DNA of 64,000 nucleotides, taken from positions 37,219,933 to 37,283,932 of the forward strand of contig NC_089279.1 of the NCBI RefSeq assembly GCF_963678975.1, given 5' to 3'. Positions 4,390 to 63,597 of this stretch are shown here, in pieces (the first letter of the stretch is position 1; each line of letters starts with the position of its first letter). The translations under genes and the position numbers were made by a program. Below the pieces are notes generated by a model, which worked only from the letters and a program-made list of their open reading frames with translations, was not told where the DNA came from and did no database searches. The DNA is from Dysidea avara (lineage: Eukaryota; Porifera; Demospongiae; Dictyoceratida; Dysideidae).

Positions 4390-7389
4390 TCATGAATTGT
4401 TTGTTGTGTTGTGCTTATTGTATGTCTTCTTCCGTAGTGGCAACTCGGTTGTATTGAGATTTTCATCTCGGTAACCCTTTCCGCTGTGATGAGTGCTGAC
4501 AGTCTGTTTCACTAGATGAGCGGCTCTGGCTGTACAGTAGTTGACTGAGTCCAACTTTCCTCCAGCATTGTGCTTATATTGACTGAACAAGCTTTCAACA
4601 GCTGATCCCGATAGTCGTTCTGGTGAAATAAAATAGGTTGGGTAGGTTTTGAAGAACCACTCACTGAAGGCCCTAAAGCCATACACATCAATTCTTAAGA
4701 GGTCCCAAGCTGTAAGAAATGTACACATAAGCACATGTACACTAACTTATGCATGCACATTTAAGAACAAATACTTACTTTGCCAAGACAAAAATGACCT
4801 TTGTGTATTTGAGGTATGGGGAAACTTGGGATCTAAGCGTGGGAGAAAGGTTCTGAAATAGAACTATTACAAAGGATGTACACAATTACCTTGTTGTAAA
4901 ATAGCATCAAGCCAATCGGTGAAGTAGCTGAAACCTTCGTTGATGTTTTTAATCACATCAGAATTCATGTCCCTGACACAGTCATGGCTTAGAAAGCCTT
5001 TTTCAAACAAACGACTGCTAGCTTCCAGATACTCCAGGGTCTCTGATGTTACTCCAGCATCTGGTGGCGTGGGCTCTTGGTTAGCATACCAGTAGAGCTC
5101 TCCTAAAACTTGTTCTTGCTACCAATATTTTTATACAATTACATCATTGAATGCCAGGAATTTAATACTAAACCTTACCTGCATGATCTTTGCTGGATGA
5201 ACATTCAGTTTTGTCCATGCATCCCGCAGGACGTGAGTCTCTTTTAGCCTTGGAACCATTCTGGCTAAATTTTGCTTTGCTCGTTCCAGCTCCCTTTGAT
5301 ACAAACTATCAATAGCCTCCCATCCAAACGTACATTTGTCTGTACGCTGAAATTGTTTGGAGCCACCTATCTTTGATGAGAACAGAGCATTGATCATGTT
5401 CTTTAACTGCAGTGAAACAGGTATATGTAAATATATAATTATATAGACATACAACATGCCTGATGTGACGGACAAATTAACCAAAAAATTTGGTTTGGAG
5501 GGTTGAATGGATTGATCATCCATGGCTTCACTTCAAACTTGTCTTCACCATCAGTGACAGAGTAAGCACCATGATGACCATGACAAGCCTTGATGGTAGC
5601 AATGTTGGAGGAGCCCCCGTCACACACTAAAACACTTGTCTGCAAGCCATGACATTGAAACAGTTTCACTGTTTCTAGCACACAAGCCAACACAAACTTG
5701 CCATCTACAGAGGGTGCACATGTAAAATAAGGCCCAACAATGTCAAAGCTGCTTGTCAGATCTCTCCATAGGAATTGTAACACATATGATGTCTGCTTGC
5801 TGCCCTCAGAATTCTTCAACAGTAGATAAATATCATTCAATGATGCAAGATCAGCTGCCGTCATTGCCAATCCCATTAGTTGATTGTTTCGAGAATTCCA
5901 CATTAATTGACAAGCAACTTTGACTTCGTCAAAGATCAATGCACCATCTCCCCTCGGCTCATGCTTCCCTACTAGTCTACATTGCTCCTTAAACAACACA
6001 TAGCGAGACACTTGGTCAGTTATGCATGCTGAACTAGCCCCTGGTGCATGGATGAAAGCACCTGAGTAGGACTGTAGCGTTGATTTGGCTGGTAAGCTCA
6101 GGATGTTAAAATCCTTTAATGCCTGGTATGCAGCAGGACTACGACAGTATATCGCTAAGGCTACAAAATATTGAGATAACAATACACTCATGATAATTGA
6201 CGCATACATTACCCATTCTGATTGTAACCATACTCCATCGATTACCTCGTCGACCATTACCTACAACAAAAACAATAGAATTTTAAAATACATGTATTAA
6301 AGTTTTCTTACAATTGGTTGCCTGATCATGAGAAAACTCCTTTCGCTGGCGATCTAAATCTGTGGCCCAAATATCCTTCAAAATGCTTCCAACTCCATGT
6401 TTTTCTCCTTCATCAAACAATTTCTGCAAGTCTTCGTCTTCCATTTTCTTTACAATAGCACACATTTCATCATTCTGCTCTTCGTCCAATTCAATTTCAT
6501 TTTCTTCATATCGTGCCAGCTTCCTAATGTTACTAGTTCTTTCATACTGAGCCAATTTTCTTCTTTTTGCTTGACTGGCTGGGCTCATATATGACATCCT
6601 GGCTCGGGATGATGGTTGCTGTCGTTTCGTTTTTCTTGTTGGAGTTTCTGAAGATGTCCTACGTTTCTGGTGCTTCAAATATAAAAGCAGACTCTTGCAT
6701 GGATAACACTTCACTTCCTTCGATGACTTTTCTTCCTTTGTAGCATTATGAGCTAGCTGAAACAGAAGGCTGCAATCCACAGAATCTACACGCTTGAATG
6801 GGAATGTTGTGAGCCGTACTTTCTTAAGATGGAAGCGGATTGTCTTATTGTATTCAGACATGTATTGATCATACTGAAGCAGCCCCGGACAAAACTTGTA
6901 TTGAGATTTATCTCCTAGCAACTTGCACAAGGAAGCTATGTCCTCAAATGTGTCGAAGCTTTCTTTTTTCCAGAGCCTCATTAGCACGTGTACACTGTAG
7001 ATCTTATACTGTACCTGGATCTGAATTCGTGGCATAACTCCCAAAGGCTGGTGGACGAACAGTTGCAGTGGAGTAATCATCAAAACTGGCACTTGCAAAT
7101 CACCTTCAGCACCGTCGATTGATACACGTGACAACACAAAAGAAAACTCTGGGAAAAAATCGCTTACATTCTCCTGTATATCTTTCAGAAATTCTACCTG
7201 CCTTTCAATCGAGATAGTCGTCAAGATGTCATTTTCAGAGCTATTGTCTTCCACGGCAGTCGAGTCGGGTGCTACACTAGCAGTTCCGTTGTAATCTTCT
7301 TCCTCGCACAATTCCTCAATGGGATGGCATTCGACTTGCGACGACAGAGGTGAAGAATCGTGACTGCTCAATCGCCTCGGAGTATCCAT
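4390..7389 (-). CDS. P-element/THAP9-like transposase, five exons
   Basis: Exons read as 7389-6312, 6232(or 6260)-5460, 5406-5179, 5118-4890 and 4709-4390. Exon 1 gives an acidic/basic N-terminus with no THAP zinc finger visible. Exon 2 has LPAKSTLQSYSG (helical lead-in of P transposases), then LIFDEV and LVCDGGSSN, placing the first two RNase H acidic residues. Exon 2 ends CPSHQ and exon 3 begins LKNMINALF, the counterpart of the P-element DPPHLLKNLRN block, followed by FGWEAIDSLYQ. Exon 5 carries ERLSGSAVESLFSQYK, whose Glu fits the third catalytic acid, then the GGKLD block. Intron 2 (5459-5407) starts with GC rather than GT. At intron 1 the clear donor (6311) is phase 1 while the nearest acceptor (6261) is phase 0; an acceptor at 6233 keeps frame. 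The product is about 870 residues and could be near functional. Confidence 0.8.
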
Positions 7390-11516: not shown

Positions 11517-11935
11517 GTACAGTGTATCATGATGTAGAGACAGTGACACAACACATGACAGTACCATGATGTAGAGACAGTGACACAACACATGACACAG
11601 TATCATGATATAGACACAGTATCATGATGTAGAGACAGTGACACAACACATGACACAGTATCATGATATAGACACAGTATCATGATGTAGAGACAGTGAC
11701 ACAACACATGACAGTACCATGATGTAGAGACAGTGACACAACACATGACACAGTATCATGATATAGACACAGTACCATGATGTAGAGACAGTGACACAAC
11801 ACATGACACAGTATCATGATATAGACACAGTACCATGATGTAGAGACAGTGACACAACACATGACACAGTACCATGATGTAGAGACAGTGACACAACACA
11901 TGATACAGTACCATGATATAGACACAGCACATAAC
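11517..11935. repeat. Minisatellite 3' of NFS1
   Basis: Tandem units mixing two blocks, ATGATGTAGAGACAGTGACA + CAACACATGACA and CAGTATCATGATATAGACA. A degenerate outlier lies at 12033-12075. Open frames through it (His/Cys/Val/Ser repeats) are artefacts. Confidence 0.9.
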
Positions 11936-12834: not shown

Positions 12835-14217
12835 TTAACATGCAATAATTTCTTGATCATCTGGTAAAAAGACTGAGTTCTGTTGTTTTTCCTTGTGTCT
12901 TCTGAAAGCAAACCAGTTTTGTACCGTGTTAGTAGGTAGCTCAAGTGATTCAGCTATCTCTCTCCTCTCCAAAGGTTTAGGGTTTGGATGTTTGTTAAAG
13001 ATCACTTCAAGTGTAGCTTTCTTCTTAGGGTCGATGCGAATTTTCTTTCTTGAAGGAGTTAGGTTGTATGTGGTTCCATTGGTGGGGCTACCTGCAATGC
13101 TACCACCACCAGCACTAATGATGTTGTCAACAGAATTGATCCATTCCTCAAAGTAATGTTTAAACTGACTAGCTTCAGTCAGTGACATTTGGAGGGTCTC
13201 AAACAATGAGATAAATGCTTGACTGAAGGATCTGCCATGCATAGCCTGCAGCTCTTCTGCTGCCCTTTGCTGAGAGATACCGAGTTGTTTACGTTTTGTT
13301 CTAAACCTCTTTACCAGGTTGATAACGTCAAGTCTAACTTTTCCCTTCTCTTCTTCAGAAAAAGGATAAGTTTCTTCATCTAGCGGAAAAAGTTCTGCAG
13401 ATGATCGCCGTTTTCGAGGTCGGCACAAGGAAGGAATGTTATTACCAGCTGGCTTGGCTTCTTGAAGCCATTTCTCCAGTAGTGACTTTAGACGGTGCAT
13501 TCTCACGGTGCTCATTTGCATCTTTTCAAAGTAACAAATGACAGCTTGTTGACATGAATACCCCATCTTATTGGTGATATCGTTAGCGACCATCTCCTGT
13601 GTGTACCCTAACTCAATTCTCTTAGCCTTGAAGGACTTAGCAAACTCCTCCAAATCTTTAGCCTCTGATACAACAATATGGTGCCACTTCTCTAGTGTTT
13701 CCTCGTTTGGATGCATCATGGGACTAGTGGGAGTAGAACTACTAGTGCTCTCAGCCTTACACACATAGCTGGGATTGGACACTATTACTGAAGGACTGTT
13801 CAGCTTTTTTGGCTCAGGAGAAGAAACGGGTGAATTGACCTCTTCAATGAGCTGTAGTGCTGGTGGCATTGATGGTCTAGTAACAACCTGCTGTTGCTGT
13901 GGTAAAACGTAAGGTTGAATCAAGTTAGAAGACTGAATCAAGTTAGAAGACTGAATCAAGTTAGAAGACGTTGGCACACAAATGGCAAAGATTTGGGTGG
14001 GAACAGATGCCGGAATTGCTTTGGAGTTTGCACAAGTTGTTGACATGGGAAATTTGATCACATTAGCAGATAATGGTAAATTAAATACCATTGGAGTCCT
14101 CATGGAGTCTGGGCTGGTGGTCGATGCCTGTACTAACTGTCCATTAGCAGCAGCAGGTAACACAGTCACTATATTACCATTCATGTTGAATGGTAGTACT
14201 CCTTTGACTGGTAACAT
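12835..14217 (-). CDS. Transcription factor with two POU-specific domains and a homeodomain
   Basis: Single large exon, stop at 12835. The ATG at 14217 is the first Met. A good acceptor (TTTTGTACAG) just upstream suggests that a 5' exon, possibly non-coding, is spliced on. The N-terminal ~180 residues are Ser/Pro/Asn/Gln-rich, with SSNLIQ repeated three times and a short Gln run. A first POU-specific domain (about residues 185-255) includes LEEFAKSFKAKRIELGYTQ and LKSLLEKWLQEA. A basic linker RPRKRR follows. A second POU-specific-like domain (about 300-367) includes VKRFRTKRKQLGISQ, FSQAFISLFETLQMS and FEEWI. A homeodomain follows (about 394-450) with RKKIRIDPKKK and VQNWFAFRRHKEKQ. Ordinary POU factors have one POU-specific domain and WFCNRR in helix 3; here Asn51 is Phe (codon TTC). 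Nuclear, sequence-specific DNA binding is expected, with altered homeodomain contacts. Subclass not assigned. Confidence 0.88.
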   Translation of the reverse strand: MLPVKGVLPFNMNGNIVTVLPAAANGQLVQASTTSPDSMRTPMVFNLPLSANVIKFPMSTTCANSKAIPASVPTQIFAICVPTSSNLIQSSNLIQSSNLIQPYVLPQQQQVVTRPSMPPALQLIEEVNSPVSSPEPKKLNSPSVIVSNPSYVCKAESTSSSTPTSPMMHPNEETLEKWHHIVVSEAKDLEEFAKSFKAKRIELGYTQEMVANDITNKMGYSCQQAVICYFEKMQMSTVRMHRLKSLLEKWLQEAKPAGNNIPSLCRPRKRRSSAELFPLDEETYPFSEEEKGKVRLDVINLVKRFRTKRKQLGISQQRAAEELQAMHGRSFSQAFISLFETLQMSLTEASQFKHYFEEWINSVDNIISAGGGSIAGSPTNGTTYNLTPSRKKIRIDPKKKATLEVIFNKHPNPKPLERREIAESLELPTNTVQNWFAFRRHKEKQQNSVFLPDDQEIIAC

Positions 14218-14232
14218 GTTGTAGCTGTACAA

Positions 14233-16785
14233 AATAATAAGATATATCCCATCATCACATTATCAGTTACCATATGACAATTAACAAACCACACAATTAT
14301 CAAAGTGTTACAATGTAATCATACTGTGGTCATGTACTGTGTGTAGGACCAATTTCTTTTCTTGTCTCAGTCAACAACTTCCTAACACAAGTAGCTATGC
14401 AACATCCTAGCTATATTTAGTATTTGTATAGCTCACTACTCTCTATTACACCCAATCCTCCCCCACCTACTGCTGGCTAGTAAGGCCATGTAGGATTGAC
14501 CAGTGTTATACAAGAGATAGATTACATTAACACAATCACAATAAGCACATCACAGGTATCTGTTGCTAATGGGTAACAATGTCATCAAAAGTGTTCAGTC
14601 AATAAACATGCCAACTTGATCATCATGCAACTGTAACTAGTTTAACTGGCAAATGGCAAACACATTAATAGGTGGTATCAACCTGACTGGTTGACTATCC
14701 CAACAGGTTTAACCAGTTGGCTAGGCATTAGGTTATTGGACTACATTGACCTCGATCCCATTGGTTGGGGTTATAAGACTATAAAATATAACTCAACTAA
14801 CATGATCACATTAAACTACCTTCCTGTAGGCCTTCACGACGGTGTACGGCCAGTATTATTATATACGTATATTAGAACTTATAATATCGACTATTGTACG
14901 GTACATAATAACTAGCTATAATAACAACTATTCAGTACAGCTATACTAGCACAATTAATAATTCATCATTTTATTAGTAAAGTCGAACAGGACACGCCAT
15001 AGTACTGCACAACTACAGATCGCAGTACATCATGGCCGGAACACTACACAGCTACGCCCAACACAAATCGATCTAACTACAGCTTCTTACCACGAGATGG
15101 GCGTATCGAAGGGTCTTAGTGGCAGCTCGGTGCTACAGCTGCAATCGTCAAGGAGAAATCACAGCTAATACCCGATATGCTGTTCCGAGCGCATATATAA
15201 ACATTTTACAACATTAATTATTACATATAAAACATATTTTTGTGGTTTGTATCTCATCCGCGGCGCCATAGGGCTTCTCGTATAATTAGTAAAAAGCACA
15301 TGCTAAGGGAGACCTTACAACAGCAACTTACTTTACGAATATGATTGGCTTCTTCCCCTCGCTAGCAGACCTGCACGAAATATTGGTGTGCTGCGTGTTG
15401 TTGCATGCCAATATAACATCCACGTGTCACAGGATACTCGTGACCAATTAACTAATAACACGTGGTTTAATTATGGGCGTGGCTCTCCATCCACAAACAT
15501 CCCACTGTATAATAACATAATGACGTCATCTGGACTGAGAATATGCACATGCTTTTTTCTCAGATTTATCAATCACCTTATCCCTAGCTGTATGTAGCAA
15601 GATTGCAGATCGCTGCCAAGCAGGATACAGGGCTGCTATATCAGCAAGACCACAGCAACTTGTTGCAACTCAGCCCAGATCATCAGACCCTCCATCTGAC
15701 ATAGTTAATCACTTTGAACACACATACAGTCTGCATGATATCAGTCGATCTGCTGTGCTAGCTTTTCTGACAATATCCCAGCTAGCTATTATTATTATTA
15801 TTATTATTAGCACTTTACAGTGACCAGCACTGAAGGTCTGACAGCAACATGTCCTGCAGCCTTAGGATTACCTAACCTAATTCAGGACTTAGACTTAATG
15901 ACTTGACCTACTGACTGATAAGGTGTAACAGAAAAGGGGCCAAAGTAAGGAAAAAAATATACTATACTGACTGATCTGTGACTATCTCCCTCATGCATAG
16001 AATCAGAGTGACAAGTTCTGCTAGCACTTTTGGACAGTCAGTCTGACCATTTTTATCAAAATTCGCAACACATTGTGACTGTCAAGTTGTATAACTAAAA
16101 CAAAAGTGATGTCATATCAACATGGCATTATACGGTCTTTCAGATGAAATACCCTCGCTGCACAGTACTATAAGAAGACTGCTACACATATCAGTCTAGT
16201 CATAGGAATAGCTTAGTCACTATAACTGCAATATACTATGCATGTCATGCAGCTCTACATCAATCTAGGAAATTCAGTATACAAAAAGAATGTCTAGTTC
16301 TGCAGGCCTCAACTCAGTTGTGCCTGCATGGTGTTGATGGGTCACATACTGTTACCACCTTCATGACAAGCAAGAATCATTTTTTGCATTGTGTTCAGCA
16401 TGCTTGTCTAGAACAAGCACTGTTCTACAATTTGTAGCTATATTTGATGTTGAGGAAATCATTATAAATTTCCTTGCTTCTTCCATTAAAATTTGTAGTT
16501 ACTATTCATACAACTAAATACCCCGGCCCCCACTTGATTGTTGGCACAATAATTGTTCATGGAATATTTAAGTGTCGAATAACATATGCGGAGTGGACCC
16601 TCACACTCTTACAAGTGTCGTAGACTTCAAAGACAGAGACACACTTCTCAGACAGCTAGCATGGTGGTTAGCAATAATACCTTTGTAATTATCACCACCA
16701 ACCACTAACTATTGCTGGTTAATTGTTTGGCCTTTGGCTGCCAGACCACAAGAATAGATAATGACCACTATGACCAATAGCAATA
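14233..16785. other. Intergenic region upstream of the POU gene
   Basis: Divided between the 5' flank of the POU gene (14233 to ~15400) and the 3' flank of RUSF1. No convincing coding exon was found. Small ORFs at 14691-14915 and 15388-15597 lack any recognisable motif. A short (ATT)n run lies at 15791-15808. Promoter elements could not be assigned by eye. Confidence 0.4.
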
Positions 16786-26800: not shown

Positions 26801-27231
26801 AACACTGAGCTAGTAAAGTCTTAACACATGCACAGTCAACAATGAGAAGGATCCATGACAATGTTCAGGACTATACTGCTTACTGTGTCACTTTAGAAAC
26901 AATTACACCATTTGTATTATATATGATTTTCTCTAATTACTAGCTAACTTGTAGATCCATTGCAAGATATTACTGGGAAGACATAATGTCTCCGGCAATG
27001 TTTTTGTAGCTTAATTGGTGACTGGGAGTCCTGTGGATTTGTTTGCTATATTAGCTAATAATTTTAAGTGTTGGCTATTTTAGTACATACACATGAACAG
27101 TTCAGCTGGATGAAGTGCAAGGCAGCTAGTGATGTTACTTTACAAGTGACTATAATATAATTATAATATCTACATGTTCACCATTTCGTTCTCTACATGC
27201 TGCATAGTTTTTACCCTATCTGAGGTAATGG

Positions 27232-28014
27232 TTGTTGGGATTTGTCGACAAACCTCTTCATGGTCAGTATTATGCACTTTTAAACAAGAATTCAATTGAC
27301 AAGACTAGAAGTGTGTGCTGGCTGAAAAGCCATGTTCACTCAGAGTCGGAGTCTACAATACTTGCCATTCAGAATCAGGCCATCACCACCAGAGTTCTTC
27401 AGGTTAAGATTATGAAGATGAGCATTCCTTCTATAATGTGTAGATTGTGTGGAGAGCATGAAGAATCTGTTGTTCATTTGTTGGCAGCTTGTCCATCATT
27501 GGCTGCCACTGCTTATTTATACCGTCATAACTTAGTAGCTGGAGTGGTGCATTGGCATTTGATGAGGCTGCATGGATTTTTACCTGGTTCCTCGTGTTGG
27601 TTCACTCATAGACCCCCTGCTGTGGTTGAATCATCGGCAGTGAAGATCCTGTGGGATTTTAGCTTACAGTCTGCCAGTCACCACCTGAGTAATCACCCAG
27701 ATATTGTTTTATTTGACTATGACCTTAAGAAGATCTACTTCATTGAAATTTCTTGTCCAGCTGATGTAAATGTGCCCTCTAAGGAGCAAGAAAAGTTACA
27801 GAAGTATCAATCATTGGCACATGATTATCACTTGATGTACAGAATGCCGGTGATAATTATCCCTGTGGTGGTTGGATGTACAGGTGTTGTATCTTCTAAC
27901 TGTATTACTCACCTTCGTCGTATCCCAGACTTTTCTAACAATTTATTTTGTACCATTCAAAAGGCAGCCATAATTGGAACTGTTCATGTCCTACGGTGTA
28001 CAAATGTGATTTAA
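27232..28014 (+). pseudogene. RLE-type LINE, 5'-truncated copy with intact C-terminus
   Basis: An open 260-codon frame with no reverse-transcriptase core. It contains a zinc knuckle (CRLCGEHEESVVHLLAACP), then PDIVLFD...KKIYFIEISCPADVNV followed by KEQEKLQKYQ. This arrangement fits the CCHC plus restriction-like (PD-(D/E)XK) endonuclease end of R2/NeSL/R4-like non-LTR retrotransposons. The frame ends at 28014 and is followed by ~80 bp of 3' UTR ending AATGAAAAG joined straight to (TAG)n. The left boundary is an abrupt 5' truncation near 27220, not in a TAG repeat. Confidence 0.75.
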
Positions 28015-28095: not shown

Positions 28096-28330
<235 letters not shown>

Positions 28331-28620
28331 CCAAGTACCAGCGGTTAGCAGGGGAGATGTCAAGGACTTATTGTCAGCCGGTAGTGGTTGTTCCAGTTGT
28401 TTTTGGAGTCTCTGGAATAGTTTCAAAGAATCAGAAGAGCCATCTGAAGAAGATTCCAGCCTATAATGAAGTAGTTTTTGCCACCTTGCAGAAGGCAGCC
28501 ATTCTTGGAACAGTTGACGTTCTTAGGAATGTTAATTTGTGTATGATGTAGCTTAGGCTTTGGCTTGTTACATCATTACTATTGTCTGTACAATGTGTTG
28601 TACATGTAGAATTTCATTAA
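28331..28620 (+). pseudogene. RLE-type LINE, short 3' fragment
   Basis: Starts directly after TAG units with a fragment of the endonuclease domain: frameshifted YQRLAGEMSRTYCQP, then VVFGVSGIVSKNQKSH and AAILGTVDVLRNVNLCMM-stop. About 70 bp of 3' UTR (ending TTTCATTAAATCCG) joins the next TAG array. Nearly identical in sequence to the minus-strand copy at 33583-34439. Confidence 0.75.
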
Positions 28621-28623
28621 ATC

Positions 28624-29344
28624 CGTAGTAGTAGTAGTACTAGTAGTAGTAGTAGTAGTAGTAGGTAGCAGTAGTAGTAGTAGTAGCAGTAGCAGTAGCA
28701 GTAGCAGTAGCAGTAGCAGTAGCAGTAGCAGTAGCAGTAGCAGTAGCAGTAGCAGTAGCAGTAGCAGTAGCAGTAGCAGTAGCAGTAGCAGTAGCAGTAG
28801 CAGTAGCAGTAGCAGTAGCAGTAGCAGTAGCAGTAGCAGTAGCAGTAGCAGTAGCAGTAGCAGTAGCAGTAGCAGTAGCAGTAGCAGTAGCAGTAGCAGT
28901 AGCAGTAGCAGTAGCAGTAGCAGTAGCAGTAGCAGTAGCAGTAGCAGTAGCAGTAGCAGTAGCAGTAGCAGTAGCAGTAGCAGTAGCAGTAGCAGTAGCA
29001 GTAGCAGTAGCAGTAGCAGTAGCAGTAGCAGTAGCAGTAGCAGTAGCAGTAGCAGTAGCAGTAGCAGTAGCAGTAGCAGTAGCAGTAGCAGTAGCAGTAG
29101 CAGTAGCAGTAGCAGTAGCAGTAGCAGTAGCAGTAGTAGTAGTAGCAGTAGTAGCAGTAGCAGTAGTAGTAGTAGTAGTAGTAGCAGTAGTAGTAGCAGT
29201 AGCAGTAGCAGTAGTAGTAGTAGCAGTAGTAGTAGCAGTAGCAGTAGCAGTAGCAGTAGTAGTAGTAGCAGTAGTAGTAGTAGCAGTAGCAGTAGCAGTA
29301 GCAGTAGCAGTAGCAGTAGTAGTAGTAGCAGTAGTAGCAGTAGC

Positions 29345-29391
<47 letters not shown>

Positions 29392-29923
29392 CAGTAGTAG
29401 TAGTAGTAGCAGTAGTAGCAGTAGCAGTAGTAGTAGTAGCAGTAGCAGTAGCAGTAGCAGTAGCAGTAGCAGTAGTAGTAGTAGCAGTAGTAGCAGTAGC
29501 AGTAGTAGTAGTAGTAGCAGTAGTAGCAGTAGCAGTAGTAGTAGTAGTAGTAGTAGCAGTAGTAGTAGCAGTAGCAGTAGCAGTAGTAGTAGTAGCAGTA
29601 GTAGTAGCAGTAGCAGTAGCAGTAGCAGTAGTAGTAGTAGCAGTAGTAGTAGTAGCAGTAGCAGTAGCAGTAGCAGTAGCAGTAGCAGTAGTAGTAGTAG
29701 CAGTAGTAGCAGTAGCAGTAGTAGTAGTAGTAGTAGTAGCAGTAGTAGTAGTAGTAGTAGTAGCAGTAGTAGTAGCAGTAGCAGTAGCAGTAGTAGTAGT
29801 AGCAGTAGTAGTAGCAGTAGCAGTAGCAGTAGCAGTAGTAGTAGTAGCAGTAGTAGTAGTAGCAGTAGCAGTAGCAGTAGCAGTAGCAGTAGCAGTAGTA
29901 GTAGTAGCAGTAGTAGCAGTAGC

Positions 29924-29961
<38 letters not shown>

Positions 29962-30020
29962 CAGTAGTAGCAGTAGCAGTAGTAGCAGTAGTAGTAGTAG
30001 TAGTAGTAGTGGTAGTAGCA
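28624..30020. repeat. 1.4-kb CAG/TAG array with hexanucleotide core
   Basis: 28684-29130 is an almost perfect (CAGTAG)n hexamer tract. 29130-30010 is a mosaic of TAG and CAG with visible higher-order repeats of 100-300 bp. It lies between the 3' end of one LINE copy and the truncated 5' end of the next. The 480-codon poly-Leu frame on the minus strand is not a gene. Confidence 0.97.
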
Positions 30021-31655
30021 CTTACTTCTTAGTAATAGAATCTGGCATCAAGTTAAATCCAAAAACAGATCATTGTCTATTAGCTGGCTGGACTACAAGA
30101 AGGCCTATGACTCAGTGGTGCCTACAATTGTTTCGGGTCCACCCTGCACTAATTCACTGGATACAACATCTTCTCTCATTGTGGAGCACTACTCTGTATC
30201 TTAGGATGCCATGCAGGTACTGCTCCTATACAGTTTGCGGCTGTCTCTATATGTTGCGGAATTTTTCAAGGAGACACACTAAGTCCATTGCTATTTTGTG
30301 TTGCATTGAACCCACTTAGTTTTCTTTTAGATGGGTTAAGTGGCTACCAAGCTACTGCTACCAGACAGATCAATCATCTACTGTACATCAGTGGATGATC
30401 TGAAGTTGTTGCAAGATCAGCCTGATTCACAACTAGAGATTTTGCTTCAAACTGTAGATATGTTTTCAGCTGATGTGGGTCTTTCATTTGGTTTGGACAA
30501 ATGTGCCAAGTTATCAGTAACTTGGCCTATCTGGTTCAATGACACTGTCACAAGATGTTGACATTCGTGAGCTCAATGTGGGGGAGTGTTACAAGGTTTT
30601 TTGGAATCAGAAGGTTTGGATTGTGATGGTAGTAAACGGAGAATCTTGGAGATGTATAAGAAGAGGTTATCATTGATCTGGAAGTCTTATCTGAGCGGAC
30701 CATGTAAAGTGAGAGCCACAGATTCATTTTGTATTCCTGTCTTGACATATAGGTTTAGCATGGACAAAGCAAGAAATAAGTCAGATGGATGTTCAAACTA
30801 GAAAACTACTGACAGCAACCTGTAACCATCATCCTAGGAGTGCTGTAGAACGGCTTTACATACCGCGAAGTGCTGGTGGTATTGGCCTGGTCAATGCGGA
30901 GAACCTGTACTATAGAAGGTTGGTGGCACTAGCATGCCATCTGAGTTGTTCCTCTGATACTCTGGTAAGTCTGTGCAAAGAGTTAGATAATTCCCTATCA
31001 GCACATAGATCCTTAATAGCCCAGGCTGAGGAGTATTATCGTTCATTAGGTCTACCATTTGAATGAACAGTTGTGACTCTATGCGTGATGTGCTTTGTAG
31101 AAAGCAGTTACATTCCTTATCTTCATCTCTTTTGGAAAAACCTCTTCATGGCCGGTTTTATTCTTTTGTGGATACTGAGGATGTGAATAAACAGAAGAGT
31201 TTTGTGTGGCTGAAACAACATCTACACTCAGAAACTGAATCTACTATCTTTGCCATCCAGAACCAAAAGTGATAGCAACCAGAGTAATGAAGGCAAAAAT
31301 AATGTACAAATCAGTACCATCATTGAATTGTAGATTATGTGGCCAGGAGGAGGAAACCGTTGTACATCTGTTGTCAGCCTGTCCTGTGCTTGCCCCGACT
31401 GCCTACCTCCATTGTCACAATCCGATTGCTGCTGCTATTCACTGGCACTTAATGAGAGCTTATTCATTCCCAAGAGTTAGTCAGTATTGGTGCTCCCATA
31501 GACCTGGAATCGTCTGATGTGAAGATACTATGGGATTTTAGTTTATTCACTGACCACCATCATTCAAGCAATCGTCCTAAAATAGTTGTGTTTGATTATT
31601 ATAAGAAAAAAATCTATTTTATAGAAATATCATGCCCTGCTGATATTAATGTGGT
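30021..31655 (+). pseudogene. RLE-type LINE, RT to endonuclease, frameshifted
   Basis: Begins with the remains of the RT palm (DYKKAYDSV at ~30090), then the HPALIHWIQHLLSLWS and DTLSPLLFC-equivalent blocks, and the thumb/post-RT region (ARNKSQMDVQTRKLL, PRSAGGIGLVNAENLYYRRL). Further on are the zinc knuckle CRLCGQEEETVVHLLSACP and IEISCPADINV, where it stops abruptly at 31655. At least four frameshifts are present. It lacks its own 3' UTR. Confidence 0.75.
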
Positions 31656-31982: not shown

Positions 31983-33120
31983 CTAGATATCCGATTTTGC
32001 AAACAATTTAATGTCATCCATATACAACAAATGATTTACTTTTCTCGTAGTGGTGGCCTGATACCCACTCAAGGAATCCAACAGCATACTCAATGGTGTA
32101 AGAGTAAGACAAAACAGTAGAGGACTAAGTGTGTCTCCCTGGAAAATACCGCGCTTAATAGAGACTGCTGCCAGCATCACTGGGTCACAAGTAGGCATCC
32201 AAAGGTACAAAGTAGTACTCCATAGTGAGAGCAATTGTTCAATATACTGTACTATGGTGGTGTCAAATCGAAATAATTTTAAACAACAAACAATCCAGTT
32301 ATGGGGTACAGAATCATAGGCCTTTTTATAGTCAAGCCATGCAACAGAAAGTGATCGATTCTTAGACTTGACCTGCTTCCAAATATGACTATTCAACAAC
32401 AAATGATCTGTGCATCCAAGCTCTCCTCTAGCACACCCCTTCTGTGCTGGATGTAAAACATTATTAACAATGCAGTGCCTTAGCACTACTTCACTAATAC
32501 ATCCTGTCCACAGCTTGTACAAAATGTTCAGACAGGTTATTGGCCTAAAATTCTTTGGCTGTTCTGTATCAGAAGCTTTGGGAATTAAAATAGTTTTGCC
32601 CTTTGGAAACCATGATGGTATAAGAGACCCATCCTTCAACATGTTGTTAAAATGGGAGACAATCACTGACCTCAAAGCTGTGAATCGTTTAATCCAAAAG
32701 CCCTGAACGCCATCAGGACCTGGAGCAGCCCAGTTGCGTAACCTAGACACACAACCATTTAAACAAACCTCATCAATGACAGACTGCTCCACAATAAATG
32801 ACTTATCTGCAATCTTGCCCTCAAGGTCACTGAGCCAAGAGGTATCCAAGTTTGCTTTTGCTGGATTCTCAAAAATGTTTTTCCAGAAAGATTCCAAGGC
32901 AGCCAAATCAGGGGATGGGTGAACTTCATCCTTACCCCTTAACAACTCAGAATAAAATCTCTTTTCATTCTGGCGAATCTTCTCCAAATGTCTATTCTGG
33001 TTATTTGAAACCACTCCAGACACTCCAAACACAACAGGAATGATCACTGCCGGCTGACAGTAAGTTCTTGACATCTCTCCAGCGAATCTTTGATATTTTG
33101 TGATCTTCTCATTTTCTTTA
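31983..33120 (-). pseudogene. RLE-type LINE: chimera of endonuclease tail and RT domain
   Basis: One long open frame on the minus strand. It first reads the endonuclease tail (DKENEKITKYQRFAGEM ... VVSNNQNRHLEKI). It then passes without a stop, near 32985, into the pre-RT region RQNEKRFYSELL and the RT core: GPDGVQGFW, FRPITCLNILYKLW, LDYKKAYDSVPHNW, GDTLSPLLF and YMDDIKLFA (catalytic pair YMDD). It is truncated at 31983 just after the catalytic motif. The order tail-then-RT is the reverse of a real element, so this is a junction of two copies. Confidence 0.75.
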
Positions 33121-33123
33121 TCA

Positions 33124-33171
<48 letters not shown>
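33124..33171. repeat. (CTA)n, TAG on LINE sense strand
   Basis: Fifteen to sixteen CTA units between the 3' end of the copy at 33172-33540 and the start of the copy below it. Confidence 0.97.
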
Positions 33172-33172
<1 letters not shown>

Positions 33173-33540
33173 TTTTCATTGAACAATAATGACACACATG
33201 TACAATAGTACAGAATAATATTTGTAATACAGGCATACGCTTAAGTATAACCAAAGTTAATAGATGTTAAGATATTAACAGTCCCAAAAATAGCTGCTTT
33301 TTGGAGGTTATTAAACAATGTTTCGTTATAGTCAGGTATTTGCTTCAAATGAGTTTGTTGGTTAGCCGATACCACACCAGAATGGCCAATCACAACAGGA
33401 ACAAGATCAACAGGTTGACCATAACACCTGGAAATCTCTCGGACAAGGGTTTGATACTTATTCAATTTTTCTTGCTCCTTAGTTAGTACATTGATATCTG
33501 CAGGGCAAGCAACTTCAAAGAAAATTATTTGCTCTTCCTC
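33172..33540 (-). pseudogene. RLE-type LINE, 3' fragment
   Basis: Minus-strand frame with ACPADINV, KEQEKLNKYQTLVREIS, VIGHSGVVSANQQTH and AAIFGTVNILTSI, stop near 33241. A 3' UTR then ends AATGAAAAAAG next to (TAG)n. It is 5'-truncated at 33540, where it meets another TAG array. More diverged from the other copies, so a distinct subfamily. Confidence 0.75.
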
Positions 33541-33582: not shown

Positions 33583-34437
33583 GGATTTAATGAAATTCTA
33601 CATATACAACACATTGTACAGACAATAGTAATGATGTAACAAGCCAAAGCCTAAGCTACATCATACACAAATTAACATTCCTAAGAACGTCAACTGTTCC
33701 AAGAATGGCTGCCTTCTGCAAGGTGGCAAAAACTACTTCATTATAGGCTGGAATCTTCAGATGGCTCTTCTGATTCTTTGAAACTATTCCAGAGACTCCA
33801 AAAACAACTGGAACAACCACTACCGGCTGACAATAAGTCCTTGACATCTCCCCTGCTAACCGCTGGTACTTGGTTACCTTCTCATTCTCTTTGTCAAGAA
33901 CATTAATGTCAGCCGGACATGACACTTCCACAAGCAAAATCTTCTCCGGAGCCTCCTTCATAAAAACAACAATATCTGGGCGATTGCTCACAACCCGGGA
34001 CACGGTGGTCATTCCAAAGTCCCACAATATCTTGATTGTGGCATTCTCTACCACAGGCAGTGGCTGATGAGAATACCAACTGTTGGCAGATGTACGAATG
34101 CCAAAAGTACGACATAAATGCCAGTGAATCACACGGGCCACCAAGTTGTGACGATGGAGATAGCTTGTTGGTGCCAGCATCGGGCATCCTGCCATTAAGT
34201 GCTGAATGGTCTCCTCGTGACTGCCACACAAACGACACATTAGAGTTGGTATAGAGACATGCATTATTTTTGCCTCATACACTCTAGTCCTTATAACCTG
34301 GTCCTGGATGGCAAAAATAGTGCTTTCTGATTCACCATGCAAAAACTCGCCAAGCCAGCGAAAGCTCCTTGATACATCTATTGGGTTGGAGCAACACCAG
34401 TTAACAAACTTACCATGCAGTTAACAAACTTACCATG

Positions 34438-35521: not shown

Positions 35522-36404
<883 letters not shown>

Positions 36405-57220: not shown

Positions 57221-63597
<6,377 letters not shown>

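Follow-up and report, generated by a model that had tools for sequence, protein, structure and literature searches.

A gene on the minus strand of a 64,000-nucleotide stretch of the Dysidea avara genome (the window, which lies inside contig C8) encodes a protein with two POU-specific domains (POUs) ahead of one homeodomain. Its architecture, POUs1-linker-POUs2-linker-homeodomain, is well supported. In the POU class, as is well known, two unlike DNA-binding modules are tethered to each other. The residues of the three domains suggest that in this protein the reading of DNA has shifted to the doubled POUs domain. All coordinates are positions in the window, and the main features are as follows.

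12835..14217, minus strand: coding sequence of the POUs-POUs-homeodomain protein, 460 amino acids, start codon ATG at 14217-14215 and stop codon at 12837-12835, from the open frame and its translation
13456..13665, minus strand: POUs1, the first POU-specific domain, aligned to positions 2-71 of the 72 in the PF00157 profile
13126..13326, minus strand: POUs2, the second POU-specific domain, aligned to PF00157 positions 6-72
12883..13050, minus strand: homeodomain with a WFAFRR recognition helix and an R5K arm; PF00046 score 50.2 bits alone and 50.6 bits genome-wide

The Pfam cut-offs are 27 bits for PF00157 and 22.9 bits for PF00046 (homeodomain). We found that POUs1 scored 82.4 bits (E 1.1e-20) in the whole-genome search and 83.0 bits (E 1.4e-23) when scanned alone, and that POUs2 scored 57.5 bits both ways (E 6.1e-13 genome-wide, E 1.3e-15 alone). 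A preliminary description of this DNA had placed two POU-specific domains before one homeodomain at 12885-13680 and had named, among its checks, a search with the POU-specific profile. That search gave two significant matches, both above the 27-bit cut-off, and together with the homeodomain score it bears out the claim. The span also agrees with the DNA-binding part of the minus-strand open reading frame 12835-14259, which encloses the whole protein. Both POUs copies and the homeodomain share one frame with zero stops. The linkers are 40 residues long between POUs1 and POUs2 and 24 between POUs2 and the homeodomain, with the domain ends as we chose them.

The genome that was searched comprises 550.8 Mb in 108 contigs. 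Genome-wide, PF00157 matched four domains spread over three genes: two in the window gene and one each in the genes L001 (contig C6) and L002 (contig C12). In 14 control genomes, PF00157 had matches in two, none of them above the cut-off. Further POUs-bearing genes were not found with the whole window protein or the POU domain of human POU6F1 as queries, in searches run exon by exon, so that POUs split by introns could escape detection; the POU6F1 query also picked up six homeodomain regions weakly (E 0.02 to 0.8). Searched against the genome as protein or as DNA, the window gene fully matches nothing but itself. L001 is POU1-like, with Pit-1 as its best PDB match and 72% identity in the POUs. 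Judged by sequence, these results show a POU set of one POU1-like gene, one derived gene of uncertain family (L002) and the POUs-POUs-homeodomain gene. According to the part of PMC4245813 available to us, nematodes are the only exception among annotated animal genomes, all others having POU6. A separate POU6 gene was not found in this genome by the Pou profile or the human POU6F1 POU-domain query.

The protein fits the POU class in the broad sense, with PF00157 twice upstream of a single PF00046, in order and in one frame. As in POU1-POU6, the POUs is N-terminal to the homeodomain, both are Pfam-significant, and a basic arm-like motif follows the POUs. Unlike POU1-POU6, whose layout is a single POUs, a linker and a homeodomain, the window protein has two POUs, its homeodomain is without R5, V47, N51 and Q54, and both POUs are without R49. 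The CUT domain (PF02376) gave no match with the whole protein up to E 10 or with its pieces up to E 1, and profile scans of the protein or its pieces gave no match to the HNF family. The homeodomain aligns without an insert, in contrast to the long insert between helix 2 and helix 3 of the HNF class.

As described in the available portions of PMC4245813, PMC2211742 and PMC4901127, a POU protein consists of a single POUs joined by a linker to a single homeodomain. This agrees with the earlier statement that known POU classes carry one POUs. The exceptions that these sources mention, human HDX (PMC2211742) and two of the three Mnemiopsis POU26 homeodomains (PMC2959044), lack the POUs, and none has two. 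Open-access papers in PubMed Central yielded no description of a protein with two, or tandem, POU-specific domains, and a looser PubMed Central search gave none by title among the matches listed.

We then compared the domains, residue by residue, with eight rows: L001, L002, five PDB chains and one presumed human POU4F1 sequence, which also stood in the trees. There are 20 columns that are hydrophobic in all eight rows, of which POUs1 keeps 20 and POUs2 keeps 19; thus, both domains look folded. AlphaFold2, run with one or two input sequences, gave a 4+4+3 helix pattern at low confidence (predicted local distance difference test, 47.5 and 66.2). Four helices are predicted in each POUs by these weak models, with moderate confidence for POUs2 in one of them, and the POUs2 model superposes poorly on POUs structures. 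POUs1 keeps 18 of the 20 invariant columns and has lost G31 and R49. POUs2 keeps 11 of the 20, and R49 is the only named base contact among the nine lost. R20, Q27 and Q44 are present in both copies. Position 45 is A in both copies versus T or S elsewhere, position 31 is A versus G in all eight comparison rows, and the otherwise invariant R49 is replaced by Y in POUs1 and by L in POUs2. The DNA-interacting residues of Oct4 are listed, in the accessible part of PMC4720428, as including Arg20, Gln44, Thr45, Arg49, Asn143 and Gln146.

The homeodomain keeps eight of 13 invariant columns, and the five lost are R5K, I31R, R46Q, N51F and Q54H. Three of these positions contact bases; a fourth such position is 47, which is V or I elsewhere and N here. 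Position 50 is A, where the eight rows have C or S; the R5, N51, Q54 and C/S50 of the canonical POU homeodomain are thus K5, F51, H54 and A50 here. The core residues L16, F20, W48, F49 and R53 are kept. In the consulted portion of PMC9943670, the POU residues V139, N143 and Q146 bind AT steps; by our conversion these are homeodomain positions 47, 51 and 54. R5 is found in 99 of 106 Drosophila homeodomains according to the part of PMC4901127 that treats it. At least 34 homeodomain matches occur in the genome, and these, with the POU genes, mark it as that of an animal. Among 27 homeodomain rows (overlapping loci included), residue 51 is N in 23, K in two, A in one and F in one. The only F belongs to the window gene; the loss of N51 as such is not unique in the genome.

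We propose, with a probability of roughly 45%, that the gene encodes a highly derived transcription factor of the POU class whose paired POUs modules do most of the DNA reading, with the homeodomain reduced to a lesser role. Each POUs module, with its R20, Q27 and Q44, would occupy one of two neighbouring half-sites, and the tethered pair would supply most of the DNA binding through Q27 and Q44. The homeodomain would still fold but, without N51, would give a non-specific backbone or protein contact and not base reading. With neither R49 nor T45 left in either copy, the protein would prefer a sequence other than the classical octamer half-site. Linkers of this length would permit several arrangements of the modules.

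It had been suggested that the POUs-POUs-homeodomain layout would allow bipartite or tripartite recognition. The layout is real by profile. The tripartite part loses weight because the homeodomain has substitutions at each of positions 5, 47, 51 and 54, and neither POUs recognition helix carries R49 or T45. If POUs1, POUs2 and the homeodomain each read a half-site of their own, this would accord with the fact that all three exceed the curated cut-offs, and the two linkers could let the modules dock separately. However, N51F, V47N, Q54H and R5K take away the usual base contacts of the homeodomain, and we regard recognition by all three domains as improbable. Paired reading by the POUs with a demoted homeodomain fits the residues better.

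In a different explanation, constraint on this POU paralog is relaxed and it evolves fast; it is losing DNA binding and acts at most as a competitor or cofactor, with POUs2 as a drifting copy. Three observations favour such decay and count against our proposal: DNA-contact residues are altered in all three domains; POUs2 has lost nine of its 20 invariants, though only R49 among the named base contacts; and the branches of POUs1, POUs2 and the homeodomain are long. However, the frame of 474 codons is intact, and so many open codons at one given place have a chance of about 10^-12.85 (independent bases, window composition, uncorrected for how many places there are). The hydrophobic cores are nearly complete. 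In addition, three of the five homeodomain losses fall on base contacts and L16, F20, W48, F49 and R53 are untouched, a more selective pattern than drift alone would give. We consider decay rather unlikely.

The second POUs may have arisen by a tandem duplication, within the gene, of a block made of the POUs, the linker and the basic homeodomain arm. Such an event would have left the following motif between the copies.

13399..13416, minus strand: RKRRSS motif, 17 residues past the EKW of POUs1, similar to the arm at the N-terminus of a POU homeodomain (L001 has RKRRTT)

The pattern of this motif occurred in 34 of 200,000 linker shuffles and in 13 of 200,000 random segments. It resembles a remnant homeodomain arm, as a duplication of this kind would leave. 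The other hint comes from the residues that are exclusive to a pair of rows. In this comparison there were seven other rows (POU2F3, almost the same as Oct-1, was excluded). We found that A31, A45 and M55 are exclusive to POUs1 and POUs2, and that POUs2 shares at most one exclusive residue with any other row. These two hints favour an internal duplication.

Several points weaken this case. The RKRRSS pattern was picked after the motif had been seen, the arm of L002 does not fit it, and the motif may be just a nuclear localisation signal. The shared residues are a weak hint because POUs1 has three exclusive residues with each of POU6F1 and L002 as well, and the highest count for any pair of rows is four. 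POUs1 and POUs2 are 32% identical, which is no closer than POUs2 is to Pit-1. The POUs tree gave no supported position for either copy, and the branch of POUs2 is very long. When POUs1 and POUs2 were constrained together, the cost was 1.22 log units (approximately unbiased test, p-AU 0.246); POUs2 could be held with POU6F1 at no cost (p-AU 0.53). The homeodomain and joined trees gave no supported placement either. In these trees, which contained no POU5, neither POUs1 nor POUs2 nor the homeodomain falls in any starred branch that holds half the rows or fewer.

The low identity and the unsupported grouping of the copies would suit another origin, in which two adjacent POU genes fused or a POUs was inserted from another POU gene; this concerns the origin only and fits any mechanism. 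Under either origin, an arm-like motif such as RKRRSS would be expected behind POUs1. A fusion or insertion is countered by the three residues exclusive to both copies, which is a weak point, and by the profile and protein searches, which found no donor POU gene of the POUs2 type in the genome. We consider this second origin rather unlikely.

Two further features belong to the gene.

14225..14226, minus strand: candidate splice acceptor AG directly 5' of the start codon, read from the sequence, with ttattattttgtacag before the junction and CTACAACATG after it
13916..13969, minus strand: SSNLIQ tandem repeat in the N-terminal region, in frame, 18 bp x 3 (3.0 copies, 100% matches; Tandem Repeats Finder)

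The coding sequence apparently lies in a single exon. With the AG at 14226-14225 just upstream of the ATG, it is probably one exon behind a 5' untranslated exon, and such an upstream exon is possible from the candidate acceptor. A minisatellite-like array with periods of 58, 95 and 153 bp lies at 11524-11927, downstream of the stop codon.

Elsewhere in the window, the neighbouring host genes are an Arf-family GTPase frame (35633-36229, plus strand) and a DEAD-box helicase frame (62746-63594, plus strand). Reverse transcriptase and zf-RVT pieces, similar to long interspersed nuclear elements, lie among long simple repeats at 31986-33266 (minus), 27229-28011 (plus) and 33659-34420 (minus), the last with a match below the Pfam cut-off. 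A very long simple repeat array of trinucleotide type, open in several frames on both strands, occupies about 28100-30030. A TNP-like RNase H domain at 5442-6260 (minus) marks a transposase-like gene or remnant.

Some other homeodomain loci, all on contig C10, were also observed. L026/L037 and L029 (about 20.17 and 20.20 Mb) are open frames that hold two or more homeodomain matches, and one homeodomain of L026/L037 has K51 (WFEKRR). L028 (about 19.41 Mb) has A51 (WFSARR) and is likely another non-standard reader; a weaker homeodomain match, L036, lies near it at 19.46 Mb. L008, L011 and L014 are three homeodomain matches inside about 12 kb (28.445-28.457 Mb). Their homeodomains, which we take to be NK-like, suggest a retained NK cluster, as would suit a demosponge.

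Repeated reading domains before one homeodomain are known from the CUT class. CUT proteins carry one to three CUT copies, and CUT is structurally similar to the POUs (PMC4901127, in the portion available). The window protein is like SATB, CUX and ONECUT, with one to three CUT domains and a homeodomain, in having repeated POUs-like domains before a single homeodomain. It is unlike them in that both domains match the POU profile. The principle of the layout thus has a precedent in the CUT class, with a different domain. The CUT class is marked absent from Amphimedon in Table 3 of PMC2959044. PMC4245813 calls Amphimedon POUB 'highly derived' and gives it an affinity to either POU4 or POU6. By this description, the window gene is like POUB in being a highly derived POU gene of uncertain family; it differs in its second POUs, none being mentioned for POUB in the passages of PMC4245813 at hand.

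It is conceivable, though we would put it no higher than a tentative suggestion, that in one animal lineage, possibly the sponges, POU DNA reading moved from POUs plus homeodomain, the pair on which other POU proteins rely, to POUs plus POUs, with the homeodomain left as a non-reading fold. If true, this would be an independent arrival at a CUT-like layout of repeated readers, with a new target site, and would show how new target sites could come within reach of a class of transcription factors. The window protein, with two POUs and a homeodomain that no longer has the usual base contacts, would be a natural test of how far the POU layout can be rebuilt. If the layout is conserved across sponges, it would bear on the number of POU families in early animals.
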